Below are positions 27,825 to 64,000 of a stretch of 64,000 bases of DNA, piece by piece. The notes below the pieces were generated by a model. The model was not told where the DNA came from. It was given only the letters and a program-made list of their open reading frames with translations, and did no database searches. The stretch spans positions 11,842,001 through 11,906,000 of the forward strand of contig OY783209.1 in assembly GCA_963678705.1 (NCBI GenBank), written 5' to 3'. This stretch comes from Panorpa germanica. Lineage: Eukaryota > Arthropoda > Insecta > Mecoptera > Panorpidae. The position numbers and the translations under genes were made by a program. Position 1 is the first letter of the stretch; each line of letters opens with the position of its first letter.

Positions 27825-27832
27825 CATTAAGC

Positions 27833-36488: not shown

Positions 36489-36679
36489 TGAGTTTTACGA
36501 AATGTTACTTTTACTGATCCACTATTTTCATAATTGATTTTTATTATTCTAATGCAATTTTCGAACGAAATTGAATTCATTGTAGCATCTACTACTGATA
36601 TGTCAAAAAACTAAATGTCAAATGTTGTTGGTGTTACCCCTTTTGAAAAAACAAAGTTCTTGTTCAAAATCCTTATATT

Positions 36680-37965: not shown

Positions 37966-38065
37966 AATATCTCACATTACTTGTTCGTTATCAGCTCTGA
38001 ATATGCAGGATGCCACGCGAGAATTCCCGGATTTCCATTTTTAATTCCAGTTTATTTGTATTTTA

Positions 38066-41568: not shown

Positions 41569-41683
41569 TAATATATATATTAAAAATTAAAATAGTTTAA
41601 CCATTAAGGGAATCATAATTTTAAAAAAATTGCACTAATTCTTAGACGTCATGAAAGTTTCTTTCTCTCTTGCCTTGCTAAAG

Positions 41684-42302: not shown

Positions 42303-44372
42303 GCTTAATATTCAATCAGTGGTTAGCTTCTAAAATTTGTAGTTAGATAAATCAGTTGTTAAAATGACAGCTATCGTACATATTGGGTAGGCAGCAAAAG
42401 GTTAAAACTGAATTTAAATCTGAATTCGGGGTGAAGGCGCCCATCTGACCGCCTTTTTAAAAACTATAACTTCTATATTTTGTAAAGAACTCTTTTGTAG
42501 ATAATTATATTATTTTTTTAGTTTAATTCCAAAAGCAAAGACGGACTTCCTGAGTAATTGTAATGTTATGTTGAATATCATATATATATTTATATAAATC
42601 GTCAACAACGCTGCTATGAGATAAGATCAATATTCAAAGCGTAAGAACTGTTTATCATATGACAAGTAAATTCGAAAATTTATGTAAAATTCATGATAAT
42701 GCTTGATGCTGCAGTTCTATTGTGACTTTCAAGCACGTTGAGTGTGTCGGGTCGGAGAAGCACGACGTCAAACACATTTATAATAAATGGATTTCTTCTG
42801 TATATATAGTTGTAGTTGCACCGTGCTGCGACCTTGACCTTACTAGAACCTGATGATTTATTTAAGATTATCTCCATGTCTAGCAGAACGCGCAACATCC
42901 ATTTTATGTACTGTAGATGATCGTTCTTGATGAACAGATGTTTTCTTTAATTTTCTAATATTATACATTTGTTATGAATTTCCCATTAAAGCTGGTCTTG
43001 AATTGAACGAACCAACGCTGAGTAATCTATTTATAGCTCATGTACGATTTCAATCATTTCCGTTTATGAAACGTCATTCAAATTGCTGGAATAGTTGATC
43101 TCATGACTAACATTATAATTCCATGAATCATAATTTAAACTACTATATTCGTTTTCGGAACACCCCATCACGCTCCATCTACATAAACATTTGCTTTGTT
43201 AATTTCTGGGCATTAAATGACAATACAATATCACCGAACAATATTTATGAAATTATTCCGTAAAATAACATCTTATTTATATCTGTTTGATGTTTATCTC
43301 TGGGTCGTGAAGCACGGGGTGCGAGGAGGGGTGAAATAGGGCTCCATTAAATATTATAGATTTTGTATTTTACAGTTTAAACTCTTTGTATATTTTACGA
43401 AGAACGAAAGCAGTCGTGAAATTCAACTAATATATAGATATAACTTGTATTACCCCTTCCTTTAAATTTTGTGTGTATTCCCGTATTCCCTTTTATTCCT
43501 GTACGCCCGTAGCTGTAGCGAACCCAATGTCTTTGCCCGTTACACATTTAGGGCACTTCGTTTATTCGTGGAAGCAGGGAATCCAGGACTACGTGTATAT
43601 ACATACGAGTAGAAATATAATATAAAAGGGGTTCCTTTGTTAGGACTCTGCTAGTTCAAAACAGGGGGGCACAGGCAAGGCATATACAACGCTTATATAG
43701 TTAACCGGGGGTTCTCAAAGTTACAGAGTTATAAGGGGTCCTTATTTCCTCACCGTTCCAAACATTTTCCACCCTCAAATATTATTCCCTTCGTACCCTA
43801 TTTATAAGACTCACAAAACGAAACGTGCGCCCCCTTTTCTTCTACGAAATGGGAGTACCCCTGCTTCTATTCGTGCAATGCCCCGTGCAGCTTGATCCTC
43901 CCCTGAATTTCATCTGACAGAAGTGCTATTACCAGTTTTCTGAGTTTCACAATTTTTTTCTTCTTGGTTTTGGCATTATCATTTTCAACGTTTTTCTTTA
44001 AAGTACAGATAGACGTTCTATATCATGCTGTCTCTTTCCTTTTTGTTGAAGTAGACTTTAGCGATCTTTTTGCTTTCGTGTTTTTTATTTAAATTCTACT
44101 TCTTCAATTCTTGGAACTGTCATATAGTACAATATACGTTCTATACTATAGCTACCTAGTTATACTCGTATATTGCGCGGCTACATTGACTAATAGCTTT
44201 AGATACTACGAAGTTTTGTTCAATTTGATTTATTGACGGTTTTTCTACAACATTTGGAAATAATTATGTTGGTTGATTCTGTAACTAGATTCTGTACATT
44301 TCATTTCATTCATGATTCATTTTTTTTTCTTTGAATTATATATGTTTATTTTCGCCAGTGCTTTACAATTAC
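42303..44372. other. no identified gene
   Basis: A 72-codon minus frame at 42680-42898 has no recognisable domain. GGGGGTTCTCAAAGTTACAG near 43707 resembles a hAT tip without a partner. 44322-44372 is repeated at about 45139-45191 (see findings). Confidence 0.35.
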
Positions 44373-45015
44373 AATGGGCTTGTGTCCTATGTCTTAATTT
44401 CTATAAAAGTGTACTATATATTGATAAAGTGGGTTACTAGAACCTCAAATGTCCAATTATTTTTAACAACTCCTTATATGTTAAGAGATATTAACAATTA
44501 AAAAAGTCATTTTGTCTCTTTAATTGTTAAAGGGCTTCAACGTTGTACACATTCCAAATGCATGTGACATCACAATCCTTGTGTAAGGTTACCAACCTTA
44601 CAGATCATAAATCTCTGCTATATGTTTATTTATACTATTATATATCTATACTATTTATATATCAAAATATCAAATATTATTTACAACTATTTCAAGGAAC
44701 AATCAAACTTCAATATTATGTCTGCCTTAGCAGGGTTAAATAAAATAAAAACTTATTATTCTTTGATTTGACTTGATTATTTGACTACCACTACTGACCT
44801 ACCCAACAAATAACTGACATTAAAACGCATTTCACGTCATACAAATATGGCCGACCATTTCTAGCGCTAAAACTACAATTCAAACTTTTAATTGCTATAT
44901 CTCCGTCAATATTTAGATATTTAATAAAATAGACACGCCAATACACATTTATTAACATCAATTTCAATCAACAATTGAAAAATCGACCACTAAAAAATGA
45001 GAACACAAGCCCATT
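44373..45015. mobile_element. family A MITE, full length
   Basis: 643 bp, same orientation as 10643-11280. Tips AATGGGCTTGTGTCCT and GAACACAAGCCCATT (one mismatch). An extra TATTATATATCTATACTA insertion near 44634 distinguishes this copy. Confidence 0.85.
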
Positions 45016-46338
45016 TCAAGCAGTCAGCGTCTCATATGCTATATCCAAAATTTTAGCCTTTTATTTTATTGATATGTGTTATTTTGTAAAAGACAAGATA
45101 ACCAAAATATGTACCGGTTTCGATTTTAAGTAATACCCATTTTTTTTCTTTGAATTATATATGTTTATTTTCGTCAATACTTTACAATTACAATTATAAA
45201 ATTTTACCTTCACTTTTCTATAGCTTTGTTTTGTAATAAAGTAAAATGCATGTTTAAAAAATATACAATTCCACAAAATGTATTGACAGTACCGTGGTCA
45301 AATGAATTGCTGGTATATGACCTATTGCTATTCCATTAATCAATCATTTACCTACCTATATTCAATACATTTCCATGTTATATTTATTTAATCGTATTGT
45401 TTACCCATGTTAGTCATTCCAAAATGCTTTTATAATTATAAGACAGAATTTTGTTTGTGAAATTCAATAGTGATAATAAATTGAAATAAACATTACATTT
45501 TTTGAATGAATTGATAAGACTGCTTTGAATATTATAAAGTTTTTTAATTTTTAAAAAACGAATTTATAAGCGGAAGGGTTCTAATGCTGTTCAACCAGAT
45601 GTTCAAGTGGGGTGAACGCGGACAAAGTCGGTTGGATAACAACCCCTCAGTGTGCTATCAGGGTGGGTCCAGTTAACGACATGTGGACACTACATAATGG
45701 ATAAGGGAATGAAATTAATTTTGTTTATATAAAACCTTAAAGAATATATGAATAGACTGATAGTAACAAGAATTGCACAAAATATGAATAAGACTACAGT
45801 GATTTATTTTTAGAATTTAGTTAATTTGTTTTAATTTTATATCCATCTCACAAATAAACGATCAAGTTAGTTACCAACCCATTTGGCCTTTTAATATACC
45901 TATTCATATATGTATTCATTCTGATGAAGAACGAGTAGGGTTATATCTTCAATGCCCATGCGCGAGTACGTCTAGTGGCCCCAAGGCTCCAAGGCCCCAG
46001 TCCAAGGTTCGGGTCGGGTAGTCGAGGTCGCCTCGTGACCCTCACCGCAGCTCTCGGACTCGGGGTTCATCCCAGACCCCGTGTGCCGCCGAACATCGTA
46101 TCCTATTGTAATATTAATACATCCCGTCCCGATGAAACAGCAGGTACATGCGGACCACGGCTGGCCCTGGACTAAATTCAATTTAATCCTAGCTAAAGCT
46201 AGAACAAGTTTATTAGAATGTATCTTCATCTTCTATTATTCGTTTATTATCTTTGTTACTTCAAGCTTTTCGTTTATTACTTTACTAGTAAACAATTTAG
46301 ATCTAATTCGAAATCATTGTATTGAAATCTATGCATTA
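45016..46338. other. no identified gene; GC-rich island 45960-46170
   Basis: 45960-46170 is strongly GC-rich, with repeated GGCCCCAAGG / AAGGCCCC elements, and open on both strands (85 codons minus, 66 plus). Nothing is recognised in either translation, so it is best treated as an unidentified exon, promoter-like island or GC-rich repeat. Confidence 0.3.
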
Positions 46339-46748
46339 GGCCGTCTGTACACGGGTCAACTGATTGCAAACTAGCCGCGCAACGCTGTTTCCAACCAAAA
46401 CGAAAAACGAACCATGTCGAGCCGTGTTTCGTGACTCTATAGAATTTTTAACAATAGCATATGATTTTACTGTGTCGTATTTGTATGTATGTATGTATTT
46501 AAATACTTTTGAAAAGTATTTGTGCACATCTCTGCTCATGATGTTCACCATCAAAAACATGCAACGTAATTGCTCTGCGACCTAGAATCACAGTCGCTCA
46601 AAACCAATTTCAAATCAGTTTAGTTTCATTCGTGCCGTGTGCGTTCTCTCACTCGTATACACATACGTTCTCTCACTAACGACACAGTTGCATTCTCATT
46701 CGGTTTGAGGCTTGCGTTTGCAAACAGTCGAACCATGTGCGGACGGCC
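46339..46748. mobile_element. family B MITE, full length
   Basis: 410 bp between TTA at 46336-46338 and 46749-46751. Tips GGCCGTCTGTACACGGGTCA and the inverse of GGCCGTCCGCACATGGTTCG. Same layout as 25844-26273. Non-coding. Confidence 0.85.
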
Positions 46749-47205
46749 TTATTGTCATCAGGAGTTCACTCCAAGTTCAATTTCTATCAGTCTCTCATAT
46801 AAAATATTTCTAGCTTCAAATTAATAGAAATTTCACAAACCATGACATTTCAATAAATAGTTAAGTGGCATTGTATTTTTATTGTATTATATATTTTAAA
46901 CCACGGTTGGAACACTTTTTTATGTCATGAATAATTGTTATCGTTAAGTTAACGATAGTGTTGCCAGATGTATAGTTTTGCAGTGATTTAACGAATAAAA
47001 GTTATTGACAATATTTACATCATTCAACACTTATGATTCGCATCAAACGCTATTGAATAAAATGTAAAAAAAATCGGGAGAGAAGGCGTATGCAGCAAAA
47101 GCTACAATACAGTATGATTTAGTAATTAAACGTGCTATCCTCGGCATTGCACAGCAAGCTCTTTTGCAATATATGCCTATCGCAGTTGTGAACGTTTGAT
47201 TCAAA
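46749..47205. other. no gene seen
   Basis: AT-rich; a small inverted repeat TCGTTAAGTTAACGA at about 46941-46955 is the only structure noted. Confidence 0.35.
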
Positions 47206-47462
47206 TGCTTGCCTTCAACATGTGAATCAAATATTGGAAGATTGCAAGTTTTCTGGCACACAGTGGAACGAATGTTTGATCCGAATGATTTATTTATTTT
47301 ATTAATTTATTATTATTATTGACACTGTTTAACAAAAACTTTCAAGTAAATAAAGAAACTTTCAAGTATAAAACCTTCCATTGTTGAACAATTCGTGCAG
47401 CAGTGCATGACATGTGGATCAAGTGTGTGGTGGGGGTAGTAAAATCACTTTTGACACGATTC
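47206..47462. mobile_element. family C element, partial
   Basis: Body sequence from CAACATGTGAATCAAATATT to GGTAGTAAAATCACTTTTGA matches family C. Both tips are missing or scrambled. Confidence 0.6.
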
Positions 47463-48252
47463 ATAGCGTACATGCTTAAAGCCAATGCTACCAATACGGG
47501 ACTGTGTACGCATGTTAGGGATTCAAGCAAGAAGGTAGTTTAAGAATATCAAAATGGTGTTGCCTTTGTTATTTTTATGTACCATTCTATAATGACAGTA
47601 ATTCTGTTAATTTTGTTGTGTTTTATTGGGAGAAACTGACACCCTGTCAGAATAACATATTATTAACAAAAGCGCCCGCCTTTTTATGATAAAGATACGC
47701 ACATAACCATTTATTATCAAAGTGACAAATAATAGGTTAATTAAATAATCATAAAAAGTAAATTTAAGATCCAATAAAAGAAAGTTGTATATTGAATGAA
47801 TCACACGAAGCCGTAGTACAAATCTCAGCGCACGTTTTATGCTCCCCCACCTTCCCTCACTATCTCTCTTCCTCACGTTTCTCAATCAACTTGTTCCATC
47901 GTTCATATTTAGAATAAGTGTTATATGGCGGACTGAAGGGAAAGAGGGCACAACCATGCCTCGTTCAAATGTATTAAATGGATATTATCAATGTGAGTGT
48001 AGTGTGTGTGTATTGTCTCTAGTATAGTTTATGTGTGTTAAGAAATAATATAAAGAAATAAAAACGGAGAAAGAAGAAAGTAGAGCGAATAGTGGTAATA
48101 ATGTTTTTTTTTATAGATTCAGAACATTCTTGTTCGTGACATCAAAATTTTTCTTTGGGAATATTTAAAATGAATCTTTTACGGATGTTGATTTTGTGTC
48201 AGTTATCTCTTGGTATATGTAGTAGTACCTATTTTAAAAAGTAGTTAAATTA
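47463..48252. other. no identified gene
   Basis: At 47956-47993 (+) an ATG in good context (ACAACCATGCC) opens 12 codons before AAT|GTGAGT, a possible first coding exon. Evidence is weak and no downstream exon was found. Pyrimidine-rich DNA precedes it (47840-47880). Confidence 0.25.
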
Positions 48253-48599
48253 GGCCCTGCGCACACGAGTCGACTCTAGCAAACTAGTTGAGCCGTGTTT
48301 CGTGACCCTATAGAATTTTTAACAATATCATAATAGGGGATGTCGTATTCTGAGGTATTTGTATGTATGTATGTATTTAAATACTTTAGAATAGTATTTG
48401 TGCACATCTCTGCTCATGATGTCACCATCAATACCATGCACCGTATTTGCATTTGAAATCAGTTTAGTTTCGTTCGTGCCGTGTGTCTTCTCTCACTCGT
48501 ATACACGTGAGTTTTCTCACTAACAACACAGTTGCATTTTCATTCGTTTCGGGCAGATTCGGGACTCGCGTTTTCAATCAGTTGACCCATGTGCGAACG
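48253..48599. mobile_element. family B MITE, right tip eroded
   Basis: 347 bp between TTA at 48250-48252 and 48600-48602. The left tip is GGCCCTGCGCACACGAGTCG; the right end has lost its last few bases (GTGCGAACG). Contains small internal deletions relative to 25844-26273. Confidence 0.75.
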
Positions 48600-49193
48600 T
48601 TATTAGAAATAATAATATCAATAAAAATAACGTTTTCTTACAATTGGTACTGGTCCTATAATTTTATTTTTCGTATTTTCCATTGGACTATATTTATATA
48701 CTCATACCTATATCATTTTGTTGTTGTCTGTTACTTTCGTTTTATTTCATTTTTTTTTATCAAGACTTAATTCTAAAAATAGATTCCCAAGAACGGGATA
48801 AAGTTAAAGGTTGTGCAAAGACACTCAAGTAATGTATAATATCAGTATCTCCCTCACGGCATTTCGTAAAACTAAAACGAGTGATGTTTACTGTCGCATT
48901 GTATCTCAAGTTAGACCTTTGTTTCCTTAATCGTTGTGAAAGTAAACTTATCAATAGTCAGGACTTGTTATTTATTTATATATAGTTATGATGAACAATA
49001 TTTCCGACGGCTTGTACACATATCTTGTCATTTGTTTACATATTTTCAATGTCAAACATATCGACAAAACCACAACACAACGACGACATGGTTGTGTCGG
49101 TAACGGACGACTGTCTGTGCCTGTGCCCATGTAGCCATGCATTGAGATTAAAAATTTATTATATCTTTATTGACCATAGATTAAATTTATTTA
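48600..49193. other. no gene seen; insertion site of the Harbinger transposon at its right edge
   Basis: AT-rich with no supported gene. TTA at 49191-49193 is the target site. Confidence 0.4.
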
Positions 49194-49454
49194 GGCCCGG
49201 TTTTATGGTTCGTCTTACTACCGAACTAAATAGCTAACTCCCGAATTAAACGAAAAATGAGTTTTATGGTCAAGGGTTAACGCTAACTCGGAACTAAAAT
49301 CGCGGAGTAAGATATCCCGTCAAAAATCAATGTTTAAATGCTTAACTCCCGGAGTAAGTGTGTGCAACAGAGATAAAATATCATGCTATCTCAGCCAGTT
49401 TAGCTATCATTATTATAATATTTTAGGTTATAATATTAATAAATTAAATTATTT

Positions 49455-50671
49455 ATGATGAATTCTTTATTATTTGTGAGTGACCATAATCAATTAGCAA
49501 TAACAGATGATGAGGAAGACCAGCTCTTATACGAATATAGTATTAAGTTGAGAAATAAGAAAATTATTAAAAAAAAACCAAATTATTTGCATGACTTAAA
49601 TGACATGCATTTCTATGAAAAATTTCGCTTCCAAAAGGCAACTGTATTGAAGATTTTAGATCTCATTAATGACAAGTTGGAATTTTCAAGTAGCAGGTAA
49701 TATATAAAACACAGCTATATGTATATACTTATACTGTAAAATCACTTAAGCATAACCTTAAAATAATGCACACTTTCAGAAATGATACTACGTCTCTATC
49801 TCCAATGAATCAGTTGTTATTGACTCTGAGATATTATGCAACAGGGAGTTTTTTAATTGTGGTTGGAGATTTTTCTGGAGTGCATAAGTCAACAGCATCT
49901 AGAACAGTTCACCGAGTCACTACTGCAATAGCAGAATTAAGACCAGCGTATGTGAAAATGCCAACAACTGTCTCAGAAATACAAGCAGTAAATATGGGCT
50001 TTTACAACATAGCCAGCTTTCCAAGGGTAATAGGAGCCATAGACTGCACCCATGTTAAAATACAATCTCCAGGAGGTGCCGATGCCGAAGTATATAGGAA
50101 TAGAAAGGGATATTTCTCGTACAATGTACAAACAATATCTGATCATTCCTTGAAAATCCTAGATGTTGTAGCCAGATGGCCTGGCTCAACTCATGATTCT
50201 ACAATTTTTGAAAATTCAAGGATACAATCGCAGTTTGAGTTAGGAGTATTTGGCAATAATGTATTATTGTGTGATTCTGGTTATGCATGCAAACCCTTTA
50301 TGATACCACCACTGAGGCATTGCACTTTACCTGAACATCAGTTGTTTATTGAGTCGCAAATTAGAACGAGGAATGTTGTGGAGAGACAATATGGTGTATT
50401 GAAAAGAAGATTCCCAGTCTTAGCTATGGGTATTCGGTTAAAGAAGACATCAGTACAAGGCATAATTGTAGCATGTGCAGTATTGCATAATATTGCTATA
50501 ATGGAGAAAGAACAAGAGCCACCAGAAGATTCAGAAACAAGAGTATCACTTGCAAGAGCTATTTCCGAAGGGAATATTTCTGCTACTGTTGAAGATAATG
50601 GAAGCCAGATTGGAAGCAGAAATGTATTTATTTCCTATTTTCGCGACAGAATTAGAAACAGAGATACCTAA
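49455..50671 (+). CDS. PIF/Harbinger transposase (HARBI1-like nuclease)
   Basis: The enzyme cuts and reinserts the transposon in the nucleus. Two exons, 49455-49696 and 49780-50671, are joined by an 83-bp intron (CAG|GTAATA to TTTCAG|A). The join keeps frame and gives 377 residues, close to the usual size of this family (about 350-400). The first ATG at 49455 is taken as the start. An acidic and basic N-terminus (EEDQLLYEY, NKKIIKKK) precedes a helix-turn-helix segment (VHKSTASRTVHR, residues about 115-126). The DDE_4 catalytic residues are all present: D in VIGAIDCTHVKI (about 169), D in VLLCDSGYACKP (about 246) and E in RNVVERQYGVLKRRFP (about 282). No stop or frameshift is seen, so it may be active. 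It probably needs the Myb-like partner encoded opposite it. Confidence 0.93.
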
Positions 50672-50918
50672 TTGTCTAAATTAATATATAATATTATCTA
50701 ATATATAAATATATATATATTTTTTTTGTACTATAGTTTATTATGTATTAATTGTACAATTTATAATATATCATCTTAATTGAAATAATCTTTATAAAGT
50801 ATTCTTTCATTTTTTATTTTCAAGATTTTTTTTTAGTAATTTTAATTTAATGTTTTCACATTCTATTTCTATTTCTATTTTTTTTTTTTGTAATATATGT
50901 ATTTCATTTCTCCTGTTC

Positions 50919-51846
50919 TCATTCACTTTTGCTATAATTAATATGTTTATTATTGTATCTGTTATTGTTGTAACATATATCATTATCAATGTTATTATTA
51001 TTACACGTTGACGCTTCTACGTTTATTGGAGTCTGACTCAGCACATTATTTTCGTTGGGTTCTTTTAAAAAAGGATGCACCTTCATGGACAACATAGCTG
51101 GTGTATAATCATCCCAGCTATGTTGCTGTACAGGCTCTATAATGAAGTATAATAATTATTTATTCGTCTTCATAATTTTAAGTAAACATTTTCAAAACCA
51201 CATAATATTTTTACTTTACCTTCAGTATCCTCTTCTTGCATTAGTTCTCTAACATATGCTCCCTCATCTGTTGCCATACGAGACTCTTGGGTATGTGGTA
51301 TCGGACCTTAAATTACACGTATTTATATGCATAGAAATATCATATCGAGAATAAATGTATTGAGTACATGAGTTAAATTACATACCAGGTAAATTTATAA
51401 AATCCGAATCTAATATACCTTCTTCACCCTCAGCCGACAACTTAATGAAATCTTTAACTCTGTAAAGGACATTGTTCATTTGCGGATTTGTTGCCGGTCC
51501 ACCTCCTGTACCAAATATTGATTTTCTATCTGCTGCTGATAATTTTCTGGCATCCTTTTTCATTGCCTTAAATTTAAGTTTGAGGTTTTCTTTAGACCTC
51601 TGCAAGACGCTTCTGGTGTTAAACATAGCCGTAATGTCATCCCAAGCCTTCTCCTAGTAATTATTTTTCTTTATTTATATGAAATACTTGCAATAATATT
51701 AGACAATTAGTACATACCTTAATTCTGGAAGTGACTCCATCCGTTTTCGTGTTTAAAACAATTGGCTTGAAACTTTCCACCGCATCTATTAGAACTTGGC
51801 AATCCTCAATAGAGAAATTAAACGTACGTGTTCTCTTGTCAGACAT
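50919..51846 (-). CDS. Harbinger Myb/SANT-like DNA-binding partner, C-terminus out of frame
   Basis: Four exons on the minus strand: 51846-51718, 51653-51386, 51306-51220 and 51136-50919. All have GT-AG borders and compatible phases, giving 233 residues from MSDKRTRTFNFS. Exons 1 and 2 encode a trihelix Myb/SANT-like domain (FSIEDCQVLIDAVESF, EKAWDDITAMFN, RSKENLKLKFKAMKKDARK), as in the second protein of Harbinger elements, which binds subterminal DNA and brings the transposase to the nucleus. The chosen frame then ends in an Asn-rich run. A coiled coil typical of the family's C-terminus (ENRRNEIHILQKKKIEIEIE) lies just downstream, 50810-50950, in another frame. A one-base slip in the AAT repeat near 51000 would explain this, so the copy may be slightly damaged. 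Alternatively a further splice restores it. Confidence 0.75.
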
Positions 51847-52120
51847 TTTTAAAACAATAATTAAACTGAATCTGACATTTACTAATGTAAACAAATATTC
51901 CCATTTCATAAACATTTAAATCTACTACGTACTATTATCTCTGCTACGTACCACTTGCCGTAAAATGAATGGTTTACGTTACGGTTTATTTATTTTTCTC
52001 AGTATTAACTAACCCGGGATTAAATTTGGACCATAAAACCCGATACAAAAATAAGTATCGAACTAAGCTAACTCGGGGTTTCGTAACCCCGAAGTAAATA
52101 AAAGACCATAAAACCGGGCC

Positions 52121-52220
52121 TTAGTATTTTTTTCACTAAACTATATCAATAAATATTTACTTCAAGTAATAACAAAATAAAATGCAACTTGTTTTTAAAA
52201 TTGTTTTCCTGCTTTGTTTT
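52121..52220. other. short flank of the Harbinger element
   Basis: Starts with the TTA target duplication; nothing else seen. Confidence 0.5.
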
Positions 52221-52406
52221 ATTCTACATAAAACTGTGTTATAATTGCGCATTTAGATACAAGTACAGGGCTTAAATACTTAACGTATCTAGATACATTA
52301 TTACAGTAACTTTAATCATTGAAATGTTTGAATTTATAGAACAGTAAAGAACGAGAGATATTAGGGTAAATTCCACGGCTCCGGACAATATCCCAGAATT
52401 GATTTA
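52221..52406. repeat. tandem duplication, unit 1
   Basis: About 185 bp (ATTCTACATAAAAC, AATTGCGCATTTAGATACAA, CGTATCTAGATACATTATTA, GACAATATCCCA) repeated at 53075-53290. The family B insertion lies at its right end. Confidence 0.7.
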
Positions 52407-53071
52407 GGCCGTCCGCACACGAGTCGATTGATTTCAAACGAAAAACGAGCCGTGTTTCGTGACTATAGAATTTTTAACAATAGCATAATAAAGGTGTCAG
52501 GAATAATTACGATTTACTAATTACAAATCATAAGCTGAACATATCACTGGTACAGTAGTATTTATTAACAAATGTAAGAACTGTTTGCAATACAAAGAAC
52601 TGTATGTCTCAATGACTGTTATATTAATGAATATCGTCTCGCAGTGCCTTGGACCACCATGCAGAAGGGTCTCAATCTCTTACGTCATACTCTCAGGCAG
52701 AGGTATGCAGTCCAGAGTTGTTTATGTTCAGATTAGGCTGAAACTAGAGTAGTTCCAGGGCTGTACTTGGAGTCTTAGTGCGCAATATCGCTAACAGGAT
52801 TTTATTTTGTCGTATTGTGAAGTATTTGTATGTATGTATGTACTTAAATACTTTTGAAAAGTATTTGTGCACATCTCTGCTCATGATATTCACCATCAAA
52901 AGCATGCAACGTATTTGCCTAGAAACACATTCGCTCAAAACCAATTTCAAATCAGTTTAGTTTCATTCGAGCCGTGTGTGTTCTCACACTCACAATACAG
53001 TTCCATTCTCAATTGGTTCGGGCAGATTCGGGGCTCGCGTTTGCAATCAGTCGACCCATGTGCGGACGGCC
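52407..53071. mobile_element. family B MITE interrupted by a 302-bp insertion
   Basis: TTA at 52404-52406 and 53072-53074. Tips GGCCGTCCGCACACGAGTCG and the inverse of GGCCGTCCGCACATGGGTCG. The usual CAATAGCATAATAGGGGATT junction is split between 52494 and 52797 by unrelated DNA. Confidence 0.75.
52495..52796. mobile_element. possible solo LTR inside family B
   Basis: 302 bp starting TGTCAGGAATAATTACG and ending CGCTAACA, the TG...CA form of an LTR. It is less AT-rich than its host element. The target duplication is not clear (GG on both sides only) and there is no second copy in the window, so the class is a guess. Confidence 0.35.
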
Positions 53072-53074
53072 TTA

Positions 53075-53290
53075 TTCTAGATAAAACAATATAGCCAGTG
53101 TTGTAATTGCGCATTTAGATACAAGTACAGGGAGGATAGATACATTTTGAAATAATACTTAACGTATCTAGATACATTATTACAGTAACTTTAATCATTG
53201 AAATGTTTGAATTTAGAGCATTACGGAACGAAAGATGTTGGGGTAAAATTCCACGCCCTCGGACAATATCCCACAATTGGTTTATTCACT
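53075..53290. repeat. tandem duplication, unit 2
   Basis: Second copy of 52221-52406, with a small extra piece (GGAGGATAGATACATTTTG near 53128). Its end lacks a family B element and shows the empty-site sequence GGTTTATTCAC. Confidence 0.7.
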
Positions 53291-53579
53291 TTTTTGTCTT
53301 AGATGCTCTAGCAGGAGTAACGTAAGGAGCTTTAAATATAAAGATGGGGCAGTACTGATATCTGGATGCACTTTATATCGAATTCAGACAGCTTGGAGCT
53401 TTATATAAAATCAAGAATTACATTCGGAATTTAATGTTGCTATGCATTACGGAATTGGGTTTGATTTATAAAGTTTAAAAAAAACCGTACTATATAAATC
53501 TGAAACTTGGGAACTTTTGCGAATTTGGAAATTTGGAAACATATGGCACATATTGAGAAATCGACATAGTGATAGAAAT

Positions 53580-53755
53580 TAGGCATATAGAACGAATGGA
53601 GGACCAAGGGGGTACAAGACCCAGGCCGAGATTAAAACAAAAGGATAGGTGTGGTGAATTAGAATAGGAAAGCAGAAATATCTTAAAGGAGGACAGGGCT
53701 ATAGCCCAGAATAATGCTGACAGATTTTACAGACTTAACCTTCAATTTAAAGTAA
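53580..53755 (+). pseudogene. possible non-LTR pol tail remnant
   Basis: One frame reads IERMEDQGGTRPRPRLKQKD, RCGELE, stop, ESRNILKEDRAIAQNNADRF, YRLNLQF. The order RME, proline/arginine-rich linker, then A-Q-N-x-A-D-R-x-x-R resembles the tail of many insect endonuclease/reverse transcriptase proteins. Short and with a stop, so only tentative. Confidence 0.4.
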
Positions 53756-54482
53756 ATGTTATAGTCATTCATCATTTTCTTCCTTAGCAATTATGATAAT
53801 AATGCAAATAAGCCTACGTAATGTATTTACTTGATATTTACGTTTGAATGACGTCCATAATTTGTATTTACTACTCATTAATAATAACATTTAATTAATT
53901 AACTTACAGCAAAGTGAATAAATAATTATATTACCTTCCATTTAAATTGATTAAAATACATTCACTCTGTTCCTAGTTAGAAGCAAAGCATTATGGGTTG
54001 ATCATGTAACCAACCAATCATATTTGTTCTTGTTCATTTAAAATGTAAAAAAACCTCCAGACAGTAAAACGTTCGCTCGGGCGTCTTATAAGTTGACTGC
54101 TGGTTGTGGTGGTTAGACGACCGACGACCACCGGCCGCAAGGTCAAACTCACAATGTGATCGCAATAATCGTAGTGGTCACTGCATTTCCTATTGTCCTA
54201 TAACTGCATAACTGCGTTTGTGTTTTAAGAAACTTGATCCCTAAGAAATCATCATAAATATTAATCGACTTTCAAACGCATCTATTAAATAAGAATAATT
54301 CAAACTTTATTTTATGGGAAGTGAAAGTATTGTTTTTGTAAACAGGTCTAGTGTTATAAGAATCACTGTATTTAACATGTTCTGAAGGTAATTTCGCCTA
54401 ATTGACATTGCAGGCAAGACTTTATTAAACAGCAGTGCAGGGATCAGAAAATATTGGGGCTAATGAAGGATTAATTCGATGC
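53756..54482. other. no gene seen
   Basis: AT-rich apart from a GC-richer patch at 54060-54150. No supported gene. Confidence 0.35.
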
Positions 54483-55118
54483 AATGGACTTGTGTCCTAT
54501 GTCTTAATTTCTATACAAGTCTACTATATATTGATAAAGTTGGTTACTAGAACCTCCAATGTTCAATTATGTTTTAATAACTCCTTATATGTTAAGAGAT
54601 ATTAACAATTAAAAAAGTCATTTTGTCTCTTTAATTATTAAAGGGATTTAACGTTGTACATATTCCAAGTGCATGTGACATCACAATCCTTGTGTAAGAT
54701 TACCAACCTTACAGCTCATAAATCTCTGCTATATGTATTTATATATTAAAATATCAAATATTATTTACAGCTATTTCTAGGAATAATCAAATTTCAATAT
54801 TATGTCTGCCTTGGCAGGATTAACTACAATAAAAACTTATTATTCTTTGACTTGACTTGATTATTTGACTACCAACAGCTACAGAACATTACCACAGCAC
54901 TGACCTACTCAACAAATGCATACTTAAAATGCATTTCACGTCATACAAATATTGCCGACCATTCCTAGCGCTAAAACTATAATTCAAACTTTTAATTGCT
55001 ATATCTCCGTTAATATTTAGATATTTAATAAAATAGACACGCCAATACACATTTATTAACATCAATTTCAATGATCAATTGAAAAATCGACCACTAAAAA
55101 ATGAGACACAAGCCCATT
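54483..55118. mobile_element. family A MITE, full length
   Basis: 636 bp, same orientation as 10643-11280; tips AATGGACTTGTGTCCT (one mismatch) and GAGACACAAGCCCATT. Confidence 0.85.
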
Positions 55119-55912
55119 GACACCAGAAGTTATTACTTCAATAATAAGATAATTATTAAACATAATAGCTACTTTTAATATGTATGACTGCATTTCATAA
55201 ACAGTTTTGAATCGAAATGATCTTTAAACTTGAATTATAAAAAGAAATCTCATTGTAAAAGTATATATTTTGAAGTAAAGTCGCTCAAAAACATTTATTT
55301 TGCAATATCATACTCCAGGCAGTCTCACGACCGCAGAGTGATTCAATATATTACAGAATTCACAGTGCAGTCTTAGTCTAAAAAGAGGCGTCTAAAGCAT
55401 TTTTTCGATTAATTCCTTTACAGTGTACCGAGTATTTAAATCGCGTTATTTTTCATAATGCTAATGTAAACTGCATTTATAAATATCAATATATCTTATT
55501 TTAAAATGAATTTAATACCAGACTATTGTTTTTATATGATCAACAATAATAAATGACATTATAACGATCTTTATGCGTTCTGTATATATTCAGACACGTC
55601 TCCATTTGTATACATTTAATGAAATAATACTACAATACAAGGATTAACGTCAAGCGATGCAAACGTATTGTTTGCTTACATTTTGTACAAATGTTTTTTA
55701 TTGTATACGCAACTTTACGATACAATTTGACTTTCTTATGCCCTTGTTTATTTCGTTTAAATATACGAAGTGTCTCTCCCCCTCCCCATCCCCATTTTTA
55801 CTGCGGTGGCGTTGCGTCAACACTGTGTATTACGCATTTATTGTTTCATTAGGTAGTACTTGGGTTGGATAGGACGAAGGTTGGTGCGAGAAACTGTAAA
55901 GTATTATGGTTA
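55119..55912. other. no identified gene; family H arm at 55357-55428
   Basis: 55357-55428 (TTCACAGTGCAGTCTTAGTC to TTTACAGTGTAC) is a small deletion derivative of family H. A 71-codon frame at 55657-55872 has no recognisable domain. Confidence 0.35.
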
Positions 55913-56581
55913 TGCCGGTACCAAACGAGGCTACGAACACCTTCCAACGTTGGGTGCTTGATGGTTGGACGCATCGTGTGGTCGATGTTGGAACTAACGT
56001 TGTACGAATCGTCCAACACGGGTCGTCTGCACACGGGTCGACTGATTGCAAACTAACAAAAACGAAAAACGAGCCATGTCGAGCTGTGTTTCGTGACTCT
56101 AAATAATTTTTAACAATAACATAGGATTTTATTGTGTCGTATTGTTAGGTATTTGTATGTATGTATGTGTGTGTGAACATCTCTGCTCATGATGTCACCA
56201 TCACCAAAGCATGCAACGTAAATACCCTGCGACCAAGAAACACAACGCTCAAAACGTGGTCAAAACCAATTTGAAATCAGTTTAGTTTAGTTCCTGCCGT
56301 GTGTGTTCTCTCACGCGTATACACGTGCGTTCTTTCACTAACAACACAGTTCCATTCTCATTTGGTTCGGGCAGATTCGGGGCTCGCGTTTGCAACCAGT
56401 CGACCCATGTGCGGACAGCCTTATTTACTGGAAAGTTTTTGTTAAACAGTGTCAGTGTCAATAATATCAACAAATTAATGAAATAAATAAATCATTCAGA
56501 TCAAACATTCATTCCCCCGTGTGACAGAAAACTTGCCATGTTAATCTTCCAATATTTGATTCACACGCTGGAACCGGCTTT
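55913..56581. mobile_element. family C MITE interrupted by family B
   Basis: TTA at 55910-55912 and 56582-56584. Tips TGCCGGTACCAAACGAGGC and the inverse of AGCCGGTTCCAGCGTGTG. The family C body is in reverse orientation, split at 56021-56423 by family B. Confidence 0.7.
56021..56420. mobile_element. family B MITE inserted in family C
   Basis: 400 bp; left tip GGTCGTCTGCACACGGGTCG, right tip the inverse of GGCTGTCCGCACATGGGTCG. TTA is preserved on the right only (56421-56423). Inserted at a different position in family C than the 25844-26273 copy. Confidence 0.75.
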
Positions 56582-56584
56582 AGC

Positions 56585-57721
56585 TGGGTACATGGAAACA
56601 TATTAAGAGGCTCTTTGAGAAAGCTGTCTTCAGCTACAATTGTTAATGTTATTTCTTTAGTTAACGTTTTTAAAAGAAGTTATTAGAATCTTTTTACGAT
56701 AAAGACAAAATGAGTGTGCCTTAAGCAGTAGTATGTACTCAATGGTAGCACGAAACTATTATTAGTATGTGTATTAAGCACGTGCTAGAAATGAGCATGC
56801 TTCATTCGAGTATTACTAGTGAATCTGAAGTCGGTTGATTATTGAGCACGCTATTTGTAATGCGAACAGGGGAAGGTGCTTTTCAGTATGTATACAGCAT
56901 TTCGCATATATCTCCCGCTTCTATTTTTGGATAACAAAACGAACCTCTGTTTATTATCAACAGCAATAAATGTCAAAGCAAAGGAATAGTTGTTATCTAT
57001 GAAGTATTACTAATTGTTTTAATTCCTCCATATTTTATAAATGAATCGTGTGATAACGTCTTTACAGTTTAACGTCACATGTGCGCACACTAGCAACGTC
57101 GGTGCATACATGCACAGTGCACCGTGCCGCAACACGTTGTTCCGCTTACTGCCCCCACGTACCCCTCTTCCTGCTCAATGCATGCTAACCTTGATTCTCT
57201 GTCAATGCCATAGTAGTCGTTATATCGGCTTTTAAATAATACATGTTTATATCAATTTATTTTTCGCTTTTATTGTTTTTTTTTATTAGTATAAGCAAGT
57301 TAAGTTATCGATAAGACTCAAGCTAGTCTGTATGTGTGTTCGTGTTAAAGAAGGAATCTGTTATTCGTATAAAACTTAATTGTGATTGTATTTGTATTAA
57401 TTATGAATGTATCTGACTTAGAATAAAGAGCCTCATAGTTAATAAAAAAAGAATACTTTTTGTCTTAATCAGTAATATACTTTATTTAATATTAACTATA
57501 ATCCCAAGTATAATCGAATTAGCTTGCAGTACACTAGCCAGTTAATTCTTGTACCCTACGTTACAATTTTTATGTGAAAGATAAAAAATAAATCTCTTCT
57601 TTATTGATCACGAACTAAAACTTACATTTAAGGTTAAAATATAAAATTAAACTAAAACTAATGCATCTAATATTTATTTAAATAAGTTCTGAAAGAAAGT
57701 TATGTTTTATGTCTACAGTAA
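56585..57721. other. no identified gene
   Basis: AT-rich. A 64-codon frame at 57041-57235 lies in a slightly GC-richer patch and has no recognisable domain. Confidence 0.35.
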
Positions 57722-58299
57722 CCTTAGACCATATGTATATGGAGATTGAATGCTGAACCTGAAAGTGTGCGAGAGAGAAAGGTATATGTTCCTATTTGTT
57801 CTCTATGCGCATGCGTCGAAAGTAACAGTTGTCAAGTCAGAGCTGTCTAGATATAATACGTGACAGTTGTTAAATATGACATTATATTGATTTAGAATAA
57901 TATAGATATGTATAAATATAAATAACCTATATATAAATATAACTAAAAACGTAAGTTCTGTTCACTCCAAATATCAACTGTGTTGGCCGTTATCCTTTAC
58001 AGCGCCATCTATGGCGTTCATGAGTATATGTTTTCATTGAACGGTCACTGTTTTAGCGACAGACGAGCTTTGTACCAACTAAAGAAATATAATTTCTTTA
58101 TATATATTTTATTTATTATTTCTTAATAGAATATTAATATTTATTATATCTAGACAGCTGTCCCTTTCGACGCATGCGCATAGAGAACAAATAGGAACAT
58201 ATACCTTTCTCTCTCGCACACATTTTGGACACACTTTTAATCTATAGGAAACATAGGCTATTCACACTCCATATATATATGTATATATATGCTCTAAGG
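57722..58299. mobile_element. family Q inverted-repeat element, full length
   Basis: 578 bp with long arms: 57722-57850 mirrors 58152-58299 (CCTTAGA, CATATATATGGAG, GGTATATGTTCCTATTTGTT, CTATGCGCATGCGTCGAAAG). CAGTAA at 57716-57721 and CAGTAG at 58300-58305 may be the target duplication. Non-coding centre. The damaged copy at 73-560 shows the family is dispersed. Confidence 0.7.
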
Positions 58300-58514
58300 C
58301 AGTAGCGCTTCACAGTGGCTCAAATTTAAACGGAACAAATAACCGCTAAAATAAAATTGGGTATAAAAATATAGATAATTTGCTTTACAATCTTATATAA
58401 AATCTTGTTCAAATTATAACCAATAATATATTTATTAAATTACATTTTTGACGTTCCATTTTTACGACCTTTCTCGAAGTATTGAATTATTAGGTTTTGG
58501 AAGTTGTTGCTTAA
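58300..58514. other. no gene seen
   Basis: Featureless AT-rich spacer between families Q and L. Confidence 0.4.
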
Positions 58515-58712
58515 GGTGAACGATTTTTGACCATTTTTGATTCGCGAAATATAGATGGCGATACTATACAGCAGGTTAAAAAATTATCAAAAAAACCATG
58601 TTCTTTTATTTTTAAATCGTTTTATGTAAGTACATATTTGTAAATCGATTGTCATTTTAGTACACTGTCGCCATCTATATCTAACTATATAACCATGAAG
58701 TAATGTTTCACC
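58515..58712. mobile_element. family L small MITE, TTAA target duplication
   Basis: 198 bp between TTAA at 58511-58514 and 58713-58716. Tips GGTGAA and TTCACC; subterminal ATAGATGGCGATACTATACA is mirrored by TACACTGTCGCCATCTATAT. piggyBac-like by its TTAA, although the tips are very short. Confidence 0.6.
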
Positions 58713-59516
58713 TTAAGCATAATGTTGCCCAGATTAATAGTCATGCTAATAGTCATGCAAAAAAACAATTCGGCACTTAATAAGACCGTGAAACCTTTTT
58801 GTTACCACTGCTATTTTTTAACTGGTTTAATAATAAATTAAAATATGCTAATTTTTTAAAACAATTTAAATTGAATTAAGATATTAATACGATATATTAA
58901 ATAACACTTACTAGACGATTGCTTGCAAAAATAAGTAATTGCTTATATGGATTAGTAATAATATGTGTGTGTGCACGTGTTTGTAAGCCTACGTGTTTTC
59001 ACTTTGTTATTAACGAATCATTTGGTTTCCTTATGTTGTAATGGTCACATAGTACATAAGTAACTTTCTATACATGTAGAGTGTACACTGTACAGTGTAC
59101 ATCCATTCTAGTCTAGCAAGAGCAAGAGCACTATATTGAATGTGACAGTTTCCATGTTGTTTAGAAATTCAATGGGCACGTAGACGCTAAAATAAATACA
59201 TTGAGCGATATTTATAAACTGTTAAACTTTAGTTTTTATTAACTATCACCCCCTGCCCGCTAAATACGGAACGTAATTATTGATATCATATTTAAATTCG
59301 ACCTAACGAAATAGATAAATATTTTATGTAATTCAGAATTTCTATGAAACTCTATTATATATATTTCCAATTACTTTTCGCATTATTACTGTAATATAAG
59401 AGATATTAACAATTATAGTCACGTTTCTCTCCTTTTTCCTTTTAAGGGGTTAAAGGTTATAAAAAATAAATAATCCCTTGACGTCATGTCCGATTTCTAT
59501 CTTGCTTTCTAATGTA
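58713..59516. other. no gene seen
   Basis: AT-rich. A short palindrome GTGTACACTGTACAGTGTAC at 59080-59099 was noted. Confidence 0.35.
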
Positions 59517-60023
59517 TGGTACAGACTGGTGCAACATAAACATGCGACATCCAACATTTATATATTTTCATTCATAAGTTGATATTATTTAGACATGAGT
59601 GTACTAAATGTGTTGCACTTTTAACGTACAGACTAGTGCGACACCAATAAAACCCTTACTTATGTTATTTTTAAAAATTCTAGGTATTATTTGTCTATAA
59701 TGTTTCAATCCTAAGCCGGAACATCTAAAGAAATTGTGGTTTTGAATATGTTATCGAACAAAACAGTCGAGTACCTACTTAGTCTCGAATATAATCTCAG
59801 TGTTCGTTGAGGTTTTTTCAGTTGTGTTTAGTAAATAAATAAAAATCATTGAAAATGGTTAAAATGGTTTAAATGTACAAATGAAATATACCTAAACAAT
59901 AGACCCTTGTCAAACAGTGTTTCCGACGTATTAAGTTGCATGTCGCACTAGTGTGAACGTGTTGTACAACTTCTTACAACAAATGTTAGATGTCGCATGT
60001 TTATGTCGCACTAGTCTGTACCG
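59517..60023. mobile_element. family E MITE, TA target duplication
   Basis: TA at 59515-59516 and 60024-60025; tips TGGTACAGACTGGTGCAACA and the inverse of CGGTACAGACTAGTGCGACA. Reverse orientation relative to 3582-4137. Confidence 0.75.
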
Positions 60024-60984
60024 TACATAAGAATTGACATCTCTTTTATACAATAGAGTGTGAAAGAGATGCATGATAATGCTTACTCAAATGTCAGCTA
60101 TTTACAGTTATTTCTGGAAATACAAAGTTTTGTTATTATAAAGGTGATAAACAAGTATATCTGAAATCGATTACTCTTTTTCACTTGAAACTGTAACGCT
60201 GCAAATGTTTGTTTTCTTAATTTGTATACAAAATAAGGGACAATTAAATTTACTATAATATTCTGAGAGCCTGAAACCTTGCTTAAAATATTAAATTAAA
60301 ACATAAACTAAATATTAAACGATTTTTATCAATGAAATTTTTTTTGAAAATATAGTAACACATAATATACATATATATTTAACAAGTTTCAGAAATTGTT
60401 TGTTAAGTAAATAAAAAAGAAGTTTGTATCAAGAATAATAAGATCTACATTTCGACTACACTGCTTTGTCTTATCTGAATTATAAAAAGAATGAAGTTTT
60501 TGTTTTAATCATTTCCTTCCTGTTCGATAAACAGATAGCAAAATATCCTTTCTGTCTTCCAATAACTTGAAGTTCTGTAGTACATAAAGTAAAAGTGAAA
60601 TGTTAAATAAACATACTTAGCTAATTATATAAAAGTGTCTCACAGAGATATAGTGAATAGAGTTGTTCTTCATAAAATAATTGTCGTCTCTTTTTCTTAT
60701 TGTCTTTTATTCATTTTATTTATTTGTAACCCTCGCTTGTGTCTATATAATCGAGTAATTTCACAAAGAAAGTTGTCTTTACTAATATTACTGCAGATAG
60801 ATATAAAGTGTATTTAAATATTGCAAACACATTTCAAAACAATACATTTTCAAATAGTGAAATTTGTCCTATGGATATAAAAAGCGTACTACAATATTTT
60901 CAACAATAGTTATATATTATTTTATACCTTATAATAATTTAAATCTGTATTTTTCTTAGAATATAACACTCAAAAAAGTATTTT
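60024..60984. other. AT-rich, no gene seen
   Basis: No repeat shared with the rest of the window and no recognisable coding frame. Confidence 0.4.
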
Positions 60985-61023
60985 TTTTATTAATAATGTT
61001 TTTTTCTATCTTTCCAGGTAAGT
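60985..61023 (+). promoter_or_regulatory. candidate recursive splice (ratchet) site
   Basis: A pyrimidine-rich tract (GTTTTTTTCTATCTTTCCAG, ending at 61017) is followed with no gap by GTAAGT (61018-61023). A strong acceptor directly joined to a perfect donor is the definition of a zero-length ratchet point, used to remove very long introns in steps. Known sites have the form pyrimidine tract, CAG, GTAAGT. If used with the donor at 19692, the first step would remove 41.3 kb. The alternative is an ordinary exon beginning GTAAGT at 61018. Confidence 0.5.
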
Positions 61024-61111
61024 GATGATTCTCATCTCACGGGCGGATGCTTCTGGTCCTGTTTGTGATATACAATACATCATTTTCATTATGCATTTGT
61101 TAGCTGCACAG
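61018..61111 (+). other. candidate recursive-splice exon or 5' UTR exon
   Basis: 94 bp, GC-richer than its surroundings, from the CAG at 61017 to CTGCACAG|GTAAAT (donor GT at 61112-61113). All three frames contain stops, so it is not an internal coding exon. It could be the exon whose downstream donor defines the ratchet site before being skipped, or a non-coding leader exon (an ATG lies at 61091, seven codons before the donor). Confidence 0.4.
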
Positions 61112-61577
61112 GTAAATAAATCTTCTAAGAATTTCGTTATATATTTCTAACTTTGAAATATTTTATAAATGTGTGGCAATCCGAGATGTGCACAAATGCT
61201 TTTCAAAAGCATTTAAGTACAAAATGCAATAACCTCGTTATTTTCCTATTTCAAATACAAAATACGTATTTTAAAAATACTTTTGAGAAAATAGAATACT
61301 CTTTATGTTACTAGTATAAATGTTATTTTTTTATTATTTATGAGAGTTCTCTTTGATAAAGACCGGCTTCGTTTTGAAACATTTTTGTTTCATAAAAATA
61401 CTATCTAGAATTTTAAAAAATAGCAAAAGTAAGGGTTTTGTAGCATATTTAATCTTCTTATGCTATAATGTTTTAAATTGACAATGTTAATTTTATATAT
61501 AAATGTTTATTGAAAACAATTCCACTTTTCCTGGCATAAGTTGAATTTGTCCAATTTGAAAAACGCACATCTCTCTT
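61112..61577. repeat. fragments of families B and E
   Basis: 61182-61215 (GAGATGTGCACAAATGCTTT) matches the inner part of family B. 61376-61442 (GAAACATTTTTGTTTCATAA onward) matches the middle of family E. Neither has tips. Confidence 0.5.
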
Positions 61578-62141
61578 AATGGGCAATTCAATTGTTGATT
61601 GAAATTGATGTTAATAAATGTGTATTGGCGTGTCTATTTTATTAAATATCTAAATATTGACGGAGATATAGCAATTAAAAGTTTGAATTGTAGTTTTAGC
61701 GCTAGAAATGGTCGGCCATATTTGTATGACGTGAAATGCATTTTAACGTCAGTTATTTGTTGAGTAGGTCAGTGCTGTGGTAATGTTCTGTAGCTGTTGG
61801 TAGTCAAATAATCAAGTCAAATCAAAGAATAATAAGTTTTTATTTTATTTAACGCTGTTACGGCTGATATAATATTGAAATTTGATTGTTCCTTGAAATA
61901 GCTATAAATAATATTTGATATTTTGATGTATAAATACATATAGCAGAGATTTATGAGCTGTAAGGTTGGTAACCTTACACAAGGATTGTGATGTCACATG
62001 CACTTGGAATATTTACAACGTTGAATCCCTTTAATAATTAAAGACACAAAATGACTTTTTTAATTGTTAATATCTCTTAACATATAAGGAGTTATTAAAA
62101 AATATTTGGACATTTGAGGTTCTAGTAACCCACTTTATCAA
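61578..62141. mobile_element. family A MITE, both ends shortened, reverse orientation
   Basis: Begins AATGGGC then jumps to CAATTCAATTGTTGATTGAA, having lost about 35 bp. It runs through the family body to GTAACCCACTTTATCA, missing the last 50-60 bp including the terminus. Confidence 0.75.
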
Positions 62142-62892
62142 CTATTTCTGATATTTAACGTTTTATTCACAAAACCAAACAGTCATCTCCTATTGATACA
62201 CTTTATAGTTTCCAAATTTGACTACAGAGTACGTTTCGCTAATTGCACGACTTTCAAGTATCAAATACCTCGCATACAATTAATTAAATAACTAATCGTA
62301 AAATATTAAATACAAATTTGTCATATAGGTCAGCAAACAGCAAACAGCGGTTTCGTTTCAGCTTTAAGCCGTCCGACCGTTCGTACCACAATTCGTTTGT
62401 TCATTTCATTTCAACAGTCCGTTTCGTTTATATTTGTACATCAAATTTCAAATTTGTCCTCCTTTCTTTTTAACATTTTGCAATACTAAATATCTTATTT
62501 CTTAATATTATAAAGTTTTCTCTCGAGTTACATTCTCTTTATAAATGAGAAGTATATTTCACATAATACAATGAAAATTTATATTTGTATTTGTTTAACA
62601 CACTGACGTTAGTAGCAGAAAGAGATCTTGCTTATAGCTTATAGCTGGTAAATGCTACATGTATATCAGACAATATCTATAACTGTATTTCACTATATTG
62701 TATTTTTTTTTCGATTTATATTTTCTCCTACGCCTTAAACATTGCCAATGTATCCACCGACGAGGGAAAGTTGTAATTCTGCATGTAGTTCTTGAGATAT
62801 TTTCTATTTTAGATGGAAGGTAGAAACGCTATTTATTAATATTATGTTTTCCTATCTAGGATCAGTCGAACTCAATTTCAACCGATTTTTAA
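62142..62892. other. no gene seen
   Basis: AT-rich with no supported gene. Confidence 0.4.
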
Positions 62893-63645
62893 GGAGGTAC
62901 AGGACGTACCGTCAATGCAAAAAGTTTATCTCTCGGTAATACGAAATGCAAAATACGAAGTATATGAGAGACGAGCAAATATTGGGACTGTATCTTTGAA
63001 AATGAATTTTTCAATTCTCTATTAAACTGCTTTTTGCTTGTTGGAATGATTTTTTATGCATATAATAGTTAAATAAATTAAAAATTACCTATAATTAATA
63101 TCAAATTTATATTAATTCAATTTAAATACAAATTAAATATTTTGAAAAAGGAATAATAAATTTTGCAACGCTGCAAATTTACGTGTGTTGACGCATGCGT
63201 GATTTGGTTCTTTGACAAATAAATTGTTATATTTTATATAATATTTATTCCGATTTTGAATTTCCTGCTCAAATTGGCATTTGCAACGTTGCCGGCTTAT
63301 AACCCACATTTACTGTTTCTTAAAGGTTTTATTTAAATATTTTCGTAAATAGGTATCCTTTTGATAATTTTCTTTTTGCAATAGTTACAAAAAAGATTCT
63401 TTTATATACACCTGGTTTTTGAAAGCCGTTTCACCATTTTTTTATAGTTAAAAGTTATATTATGTGGTGAAATTGAGCTAAAAATTATGATTTGTTTGGA
63501 AAATGAATATTTTTAATCATGTATAAAAATAAAACTATGAACCCTAGGTCTCTAAAATTTTGAGACAGCATGTATTTTAACTATTTGTATTGACCCTCCA
63601 AATTTCACAACGTTTTCATCATTTACGTTAACGTCCTGTACCTCC
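62893..63645. mobile_element. family M element, TTAA target duplication
   Basis: 753 bp between TTAA at 62889-62892 and 63646-63649 with perfect 15-bp inverted tips GGAGGTACAGGACGT. Single copy in the window. No transposase remnant. TTAA and inverted tips suggest a piggyBac-type non-autonomous element. Confidence 0.75.
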
Positions 63646-63768
63646 TTAACAAAGAAAGGTGTGTAGTGTGATATGCTTGCTAAAAGGTCTTTGAACAAGA
63701 GTTGTCATTTTAAATTTCGCGCCATTTTTCAACTATCAAAGTGCAACCATCTTTGCGGTGACATTTGG
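63646..63768. other. short spacer with a family O-like tip
   Basis: GAACAAGAGTTGTCATTTTAAA at about 63697 resembles the tip of family O, and here again it lies next to family N. Confidence 0.4.
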
Positions 63769-64000
63769 GATGCGTTCTACTAAGCATTGACAACGTCCAA
63801 AATATTATTTCAGCCGTTCCACATGACAACCCGAGACGTTGTTGAGCATTTCGGCACAATGTTTAAACATAACGCAAAACTTAAAAATGACGATGACAGA
63901 AAAAATTACTTATTATATGATTCGGAAAGAGACATTTTATTGGATTTTATCTTCTTCTTAATATATATAAATTACGTGTCACGTTGTATGTCCGCGATGG
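63769..64000. mobile_element. family N element, cut by window edge
   Basis: Starts GGGATGCGTTCTACTAAGC. The block 63835-63960 is the reverse complement of 13223-13345. It continues past the window, so its right end is unknown. Confidence 0.45.

Follow-up and report, generated by a model that had tools for sequence, protein, structure and literature searches.

A predicted zero-nucleotide ratchet point in the long first intron of roadkill/SPOP in Panorpa germanica

The roadkill/SPOP locus and its first intron

The window analysed here is a stretch of 64,000 nt of the Panorpa germanica genome, and coordinates beyond its end are continued from its own numbering. The DNA downstream of the window carries on its plus strand a MATH-BTB gene that corresponds to roadkill/SPOP, a conserved ubiquitin-ligase adaptor gene. 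Its conceptual protein of 406 residues matches the MATH, BTB and BACK/SPOP Pfam models and also matches solved SPOP chains. Exon 1 lies within the window, with the ATG at 19678 and the donor GCGAG|GTTAGT after 19691, and its end reads ATGGCTTTAGCGAG|GTTAGT. Exon 2 is found just beyond the window and is followed by six further roadkill/SPOP exons, with the stop codon at about 75.5 kb. Exons 1 and 2 join in frame to give MALAR LPVVSDCSTGQSARVSSNLHSSSTMAVSRVPSPP. The features of the locus are compiled in Table 1, together with the apparently duplicated sites from elsewhere in the genome that are discussed below.

Table 1. Features of the roadkill/SPOP locus (window or continued coordinates) and pairs of sites aligned in register on the ratchet point
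Feature	Position	Strand	Remarks
roadkill/SPOP exon 1, 3' part	19615..19691	+	frame ...GLSHVRMALA(R) matches orthologs P0002, P0015, P0017 and P0018
Intron 1, part within the window	19692..64000	+	full length 48,327 nt; acceptor 4,018 nt beyond the window
TTAAT, candidate branch point	60990..60994	+	distance from branch A to AG end, 24 nt
Polypyrimidine tract and CAG, putative acceptor half of ratchet point	61000..61017	+	sequence
GTAAGTGA, putative donor half of ratchet point	61018..61025	+	sequence
Candidate cryptic recursive (RS) exon	61018..61111	+	94 nt, then donor CAG|GTAAAT; sequence only
Exon 2	68019-68169 (continued)	+	acceptor TTATCAG|GCTGCC, just outside the window
Pair L031/L032	contig C4		78% over 153 nt
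Pair L033/L034	contig C4		84% over 147 nt
Pair L035/L037	contig C6		84% over 240 nt
Pair L061/L062	contig C17		77% over 123 nt

The junction between the first two exons was compared with that of other SPOP proteins in a search with residues 1–54, in which 64 of 72 candidate proteins passed E ≤ 0.001. A ladybird SPOP matched best, with 91% over all 54 residues. MALAR is present in 21 of the 64 SPOP matches; 15 of these 21 run MALAR|L across the junction, and an insert is found at the junction in six. Five matches have GLSHVR or LPHVR directly before MALAR, resembling the frame of the window upstream of the ATG, and many others have different first exons that are joined at the same R|L point. 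The contiguity of MALAR|L in the orthologs and the in-frame join together establish that intron 1 is 48,327 nt long and that it contains position 61018 on its sense strand. This position lies 41,326 nt from the exon 1 donor and 7,001 nt from the exon 2 acceptor, that is, 85% along the intron. An earlier note on this DNA had read the region as the interior of one very long first intron starting from 19691, and the gene structure of roadkill/SPOP and the ortholog junctions bear this out.

At least 29% of intron 1 matches other DNA among the 338 kb compared and thus consists of repeats. An open frame of 325 aa that matches DDE_Tnp_4 lies inside the intron at 49694–50671 of the window (plus strand), and we take it to be of Harbinger type. 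Downstream of the window, near-identical open frames at continued coordinates 235897–236975 (minus strand) and 237690–238639 (plus strand) form an inverted duplication. The lepidopteran form of the SPOP N-terminus (GSGSECGGG or alike) is not the one present here, and the neighbouring PF03067 gene matches Drosophila, Pollicipes and flea at E ≤ 1e-120.

A ratchet-type sequence at 61017|61018

At 61017|61018 the plus strand of the window reads ...TTAATAATGTTTTTTTCTATCTTTCCAG|GTAAGTGA, so that an acceptor motif is followed directly by a donor motif with zero nucleotides between AG and GT. The T-rich tract at 60985–61017 ends in CAG and GTAAGT occupies 61018–61023, precisely where the earlier note had placed them. 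The same note had spoken of a long pyrimidine tract; the tract is there, but it is not pure, 13 of the 14 nucleotides at −18 to −5 being pyrimidines and the exception being an A at −10. The 37 nt that precede the final AG at 61017 contain no other AG, and the TTAAT that may serve as the branch point starts at −28.

The sequence had further been claimed as the only one of its form on the plus strand of the window, and a search of both strands did find CAGGTAAGT only once. This bare core is not significant in itself, as it is expected 0.34 times per window and was present in one or more copies in 28 of 100 shuffles; the rarity resides in the whole motif. When this was defined as YAG|GTAAGT preceded by an AG-free stretch of 12 nt or more and with pyrimidines at 11 or more of the 14 positions, 200 order-3 Markov simulations gave an expectation of 0.01 occurrences per 48.3-kb strand. 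Across both strands of 264 kb, comprising the 64-kb window and 200 kb of downstream DNA, 61017|61018 is the sole YAG|GTRAGT with at least 10 of 14 pyrimidines. With the donor relaxed, and with 10 or more pyrimidines out of 14 and 12 AG-free nucleotides required, the first 41 kb of intron 1 yielded no second ratchet point.

A possible short exon at 61018–61111, a stretch that the earlier note had mentioned, is likewise present as sequence, with the donor CAG|GTAAAT directly after it. Its inclusion would append a stop codon to the first five residues (MALAR-stop, through AG|G TAA). The donor that would be regenerated by joining exon 1 to position 61018, GAG|GTAAGT, is closer to the consensus than CAG|GTAAAT, and judged by consensus only it should outdo the latter. 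This is the outcome held to apply in flies, where the regenerated donor outcompetes that of the cryptic exon (PMC8605326, in the portion available). The candidate exon is longer than its fly counterparts, at 94 nt against about 50 nt, and its length, which is no multiple of 3, and its stop codon resemble those of fly cryptic RS exons, which are generally out of frame (PMC8605326).

A genome-wide class of similar sites

The strict pattern 9Y-N-YAG|GTAAGT gave 105 matches in the 464 Mb searched, whereas its reversed control gave 41, of which 29 have one repeat-like string in common (counted from the list). Strand and spacing were analysed for 100 of the 105 places. Among these 100 matches listed, neighbours on a contig at most 100 kb apart lay on the same strand in 21 of 21 cases, with about 2 neighbour pairs within 100 kb expected at random. 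The agreement was 23 of 23 within 150 kb, 24 of 25 within 300 kb and 26 of 33 within 600 kb among the matches listed, and it stayed complete (18 of 18) when three adjacent duplicate pairs were taken out. Such strand agreement, fading with distance, would be expected from several relay points per transcribed intron. The 41 control places included no pair within 100 kb and one within 150 kb, on opposite strands, and three of the six control pairs within 300 kb agreed in strand.

The site in roadkill/SPOP is absent from the strict list because of the A at −10. It is included in the matches to a second pattern that combines a branch point with a shorter tract, TTAAY-N(6-20)-YYYYYNYAG|GTAAGT, which gave 72 rows and 69 distinct sites against 12 control rows. 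Neighbours within 100 kb were co-stranded in 11 of 11 cases in the second list alone and in 24 of 24 cases in the union of both patterns (118 listed sites). A single genome can reveal recursive sites without RNA, with the strand agreement of neighbours as an internal control.

Among the matches listed, the strict motifs form 16 same-strand runs with a spacing of about 20–140 kb, for example C14:9349523-9471149 (plus strand) and C14:10087405-10216733 (minus strand), and these runs probably mark very long introns. Three pairs of ratchet motifs are identical over at least 30 nt, namely C4:21452932 (−) and C4:22748698 (+), C2:22205695 (−) and C2:25274670 (+), and C21:19618308 and 19672745 (both −). 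Such distant pairs are repeats, recent duplicates or assembly duplicates, and since some 30-mers recur unchanged at a distance or on the other strand, repeats may account for a portion of the class. A connection of the class with homeobox genes was sought among the 100 homeodomain matches listed and not found: the same-strand homeodomain run at 5.1–7.3 Mb of C21, which is taken to be the Hox cluster, contains none of the 118 listed sites, and for only two of these sites does a homeodomain on the same strand follow within 250 kb downstream.

A scoring matrix covering −22 to +14 was derived from the 39 strict sites in the 16 co-stranded runs (neighbours within 150 kb on the strict list), with 61017|61018 left out. 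The columns for the tract and for YAG|GTAAGT are fixed by selection, since the training sites were chosen for a pure tract and an exact core, and on this scale 61017|61018, itself not chosen by these criteria, scores 33.9 bits, the next best of the 1,470 AG|GT sites in 264 kb reaching 15.4. The score lies inside the leave-one-out range of the 39 training sites (24.9 to 41.0 bits); none of 4,000 introns simulated at order 4 and at equal length reached the lower end of this range. The class shows YTAAY at −45 to −12 in 34 of the 39 sites, against 5–15 of 39 in seven offset windows, and a strong donor at +30 to +110 in 24 of 39, against 5–10 of 39 in four other windows. The counterparts of these features at 61017|61018 are the TTAAT branch region and the CAG|GTAAAT at +94. 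The anatomy predicted for the class is that of a ratchet point with a cryptic exon as described for flies in the available part of PMC8605326.

When the 39 sites and 61017|61018 were compared all against all by BLAST at E ≤ 1e-12, the ratchet points of four pairs fell in register in the alignment (Table 1), each pair joining two members of one run, and the remaining matches at this threshold were out-of-register flanking repeats. Same-run pairs make up 30 of the 741 possible by our own count. The similar block starts 44–88 nt before the ratchet point and ends 72–151 nt after it, and the flanks are unrelated (about 1 kb compared for three pairs and about 250 nt for L061/L062). The apparent cassette comprises the branch point, the tract, AG|GTAAGT, the cryptic exon and mostly its donor, and three of the four pairs retain the GTAAGT donor of the cryptic exon in both copies. 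These pairs suggest a copying of relay points, as cassettes, within introns; we infer that every run occupies a single intron and that the duplications are old and under constraint. There is perhaps an even chance that long introns in this genome gain relay points by duplicating a cassette of about 120–240 bp, presumably within the same intron and 20–70 kb away, with the flanks diverging afterwards. If so, lengthening introns would bring along their own splicing relays. Through the apparently duplicated cassettes the origin of ratchet points can be approached, and we regard their duplication within introns as the point most worth following.

Proposed two-step removal of intron 1 and its alternatives

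Intron 1 of roadkill/SPOP very probably has a recursive splice site, a zero-nucleotide ratchet point, at 61017|61018, and the sequence there looks to fit every checkable sequence feature that defines a ratchet point of the Drosophila type. The ratchet reading had already been put forward in the earlier note, and it draws support from the sense strand, the genome-wide class, the branch point and the features of the cryptic exon. We infer two splicing events. In step 1, the TTAAT branch region would direct splicing of the weak exon 1 donor GAG|GTTAGT to the CAG at 61017, with definition of the cryptic 94-nt exon as an aid, and 41,326 nt would be removed. The end of exon 1 would then be joined to GTAAGT, rebuilding a strong donor, GCGAG|GTAAGTGA. 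In step 2, the rebuilt donor would be spliced to the exon 2 acceptor, removing the other 7,001 nt and leaving an mRNA without trace of the intermediate. By consensus GTTAGT makes a weak donor for exon 1, so the relay would also swap in a better one. Alternatively, the donor of the cryptic exon may win, and the message would then carry an immediate stop.

The last outcome borders on another reading, according to which 61018–61111 is an ordinary alternative (poison) cassette exon that happens to start with GTAAGT, yields MALAR-stop mRNAs and lowers the level of SPOP. The CAG|GTAAAT donor that such an exon needs is present, its inclusion would give the immediate stop, and inserts at the same junction in 6 of the 21 MALAR orthologs indicate that intron 1 can hold ordinary exons in other insects. 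We nevertheless judge it improbable, as the exon would start exactly with GTAAGTGA after a strong acceptor, in the manner of the co-stranded class of this genome, and the regenerated donor is nearer to the consensus than the exon's own. The length of 94 nt and the stop are also those of a sequence like the fly cryptic RS exons (PMC8605326). The two readings overlap, because RS exons can be included in messages.

Chance juxtaposition of acceptor-like and donor-like sequences that remain unused is very improbable. It would readily account for the bare core CAGGTAAGT, given the 0.34 copies expected per window, but the whole motif is expected only 0.01 times per intron strand, no simulated intron of the 4,000 scored 24.9 bits or more, and the site is located on the sense strand of the gene's one very long intron. 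Chance alone is rejected for the whole motif by the motif simulations and the matrix; the rejection does not extend to the bare core. Least probable of all is that a transposable element brought in the splice sites as a cassette. The intron is rich in repeats (at least 29%), and a common repeat that lies 569–999 nt downstream (window about 61586–62016) is also found beside L032, L033, L044 and L048. Against this, the stretch 60985–61115 is single in the 338 kb compared, bar similarity at the level of the splice sites to three ratchet loci, and the nearest matching stretches of at least 150 nt end at 60033 and begin at 61183. At L032, L033, L044 and L048 the repeat sits outside the ratchet sites themselves.

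Zero-nucleotide ratchet points have reportedly been found in Drosophila by Burnette (2005) and Duff (2015), in Ubx, kuz, Ten-m and others. Like them, the site described here has a pyrimidine tract and CAG|GTAAGT, lies in sense orientation in a first intron of great length and precedes a short candidate cryptic exon whose own donor is the weaker one. It is unlike them in its host gene and in its much longer first segment of 41 kb. At kuz and Bx, altering the GTAAGT of the ratchet point reportedly leads to inclusion of the exon. The roadkill/SPOP site would give a specific ratchet point, open to testing, in a conserved gene for a ubiquitin-ligase adaptor, recognised from sequence alone in an unannotated genome. 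Vertebrate RS exons, which are said to have been described by Sibley (2015), show a similar competition between the regenerated donor and that of the RS exon, and their inclusion can bring a stop codon. Mammalian RS exons differ in being mostly expressed, with only nine fully suppressed sites noted in the available part of PMC8605326.

Fly introns longer than 40 kb contain a high-confidence recursive site in 63% of cases, and first introns are enriched (PMC6110457, in the portion available). The tendency of fly sites towards the midpoint, with segments of about 9–15 kb, which is statistical and non-defining, is not followed by the segments of 41,326 and 7,001 nt (cf. PMC6110457); at 41.3 kb and 7.0 kb against a fly mean of 9.1 kb, they are atypical of the 'bite-sized' pattern (PMC6110457). 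For mosquito, honey bee, beetle and sea urchin, Shepard et al. (2009) predicted that large introns contain RP-sites, and the insects in their species table are fruit fly, mosquito, bee and beetle (PMC2773006). The sense-strand excess in large introns was 21.7-fold in fruit fly, 4.0 in bee, 8.0 in beetle and 8.2 in sea urchin, and mosquito had none on the other strand; the available part of that paper gives counts by intron set and no individual SPOP site (PMC2773006). In the portions available, a 2026 review names Drosophila, mouse and human for recursive splicing (PMC13149111), and one bee exon is said not to be a recursive substrate (PMC8553928). Among the papers searched, none connects recursive splicing with roadkill. 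Given recursive splicing in flies and the predictions for mosquito, bee and beetle, the kind of site is already known; 61017|61018 and its host gene are new as far as the literature was searched.

Among the orthologs with inserts, P0051, P0060 and P0062 (Pectinophora and Chilo among them) have a 12-residue insert, YNQQTARSSWLK, between MALAR and the residues of exon 2, and other inserts occur at the junction in P0023, P0024 and P0037. An insert of this length points to an in-frame exon of 36 nt within the same intron in those orthologs. With AGG as the Arg codon, this exon would start G|TAY, and it could be the expressed relic of a ratchet exon.
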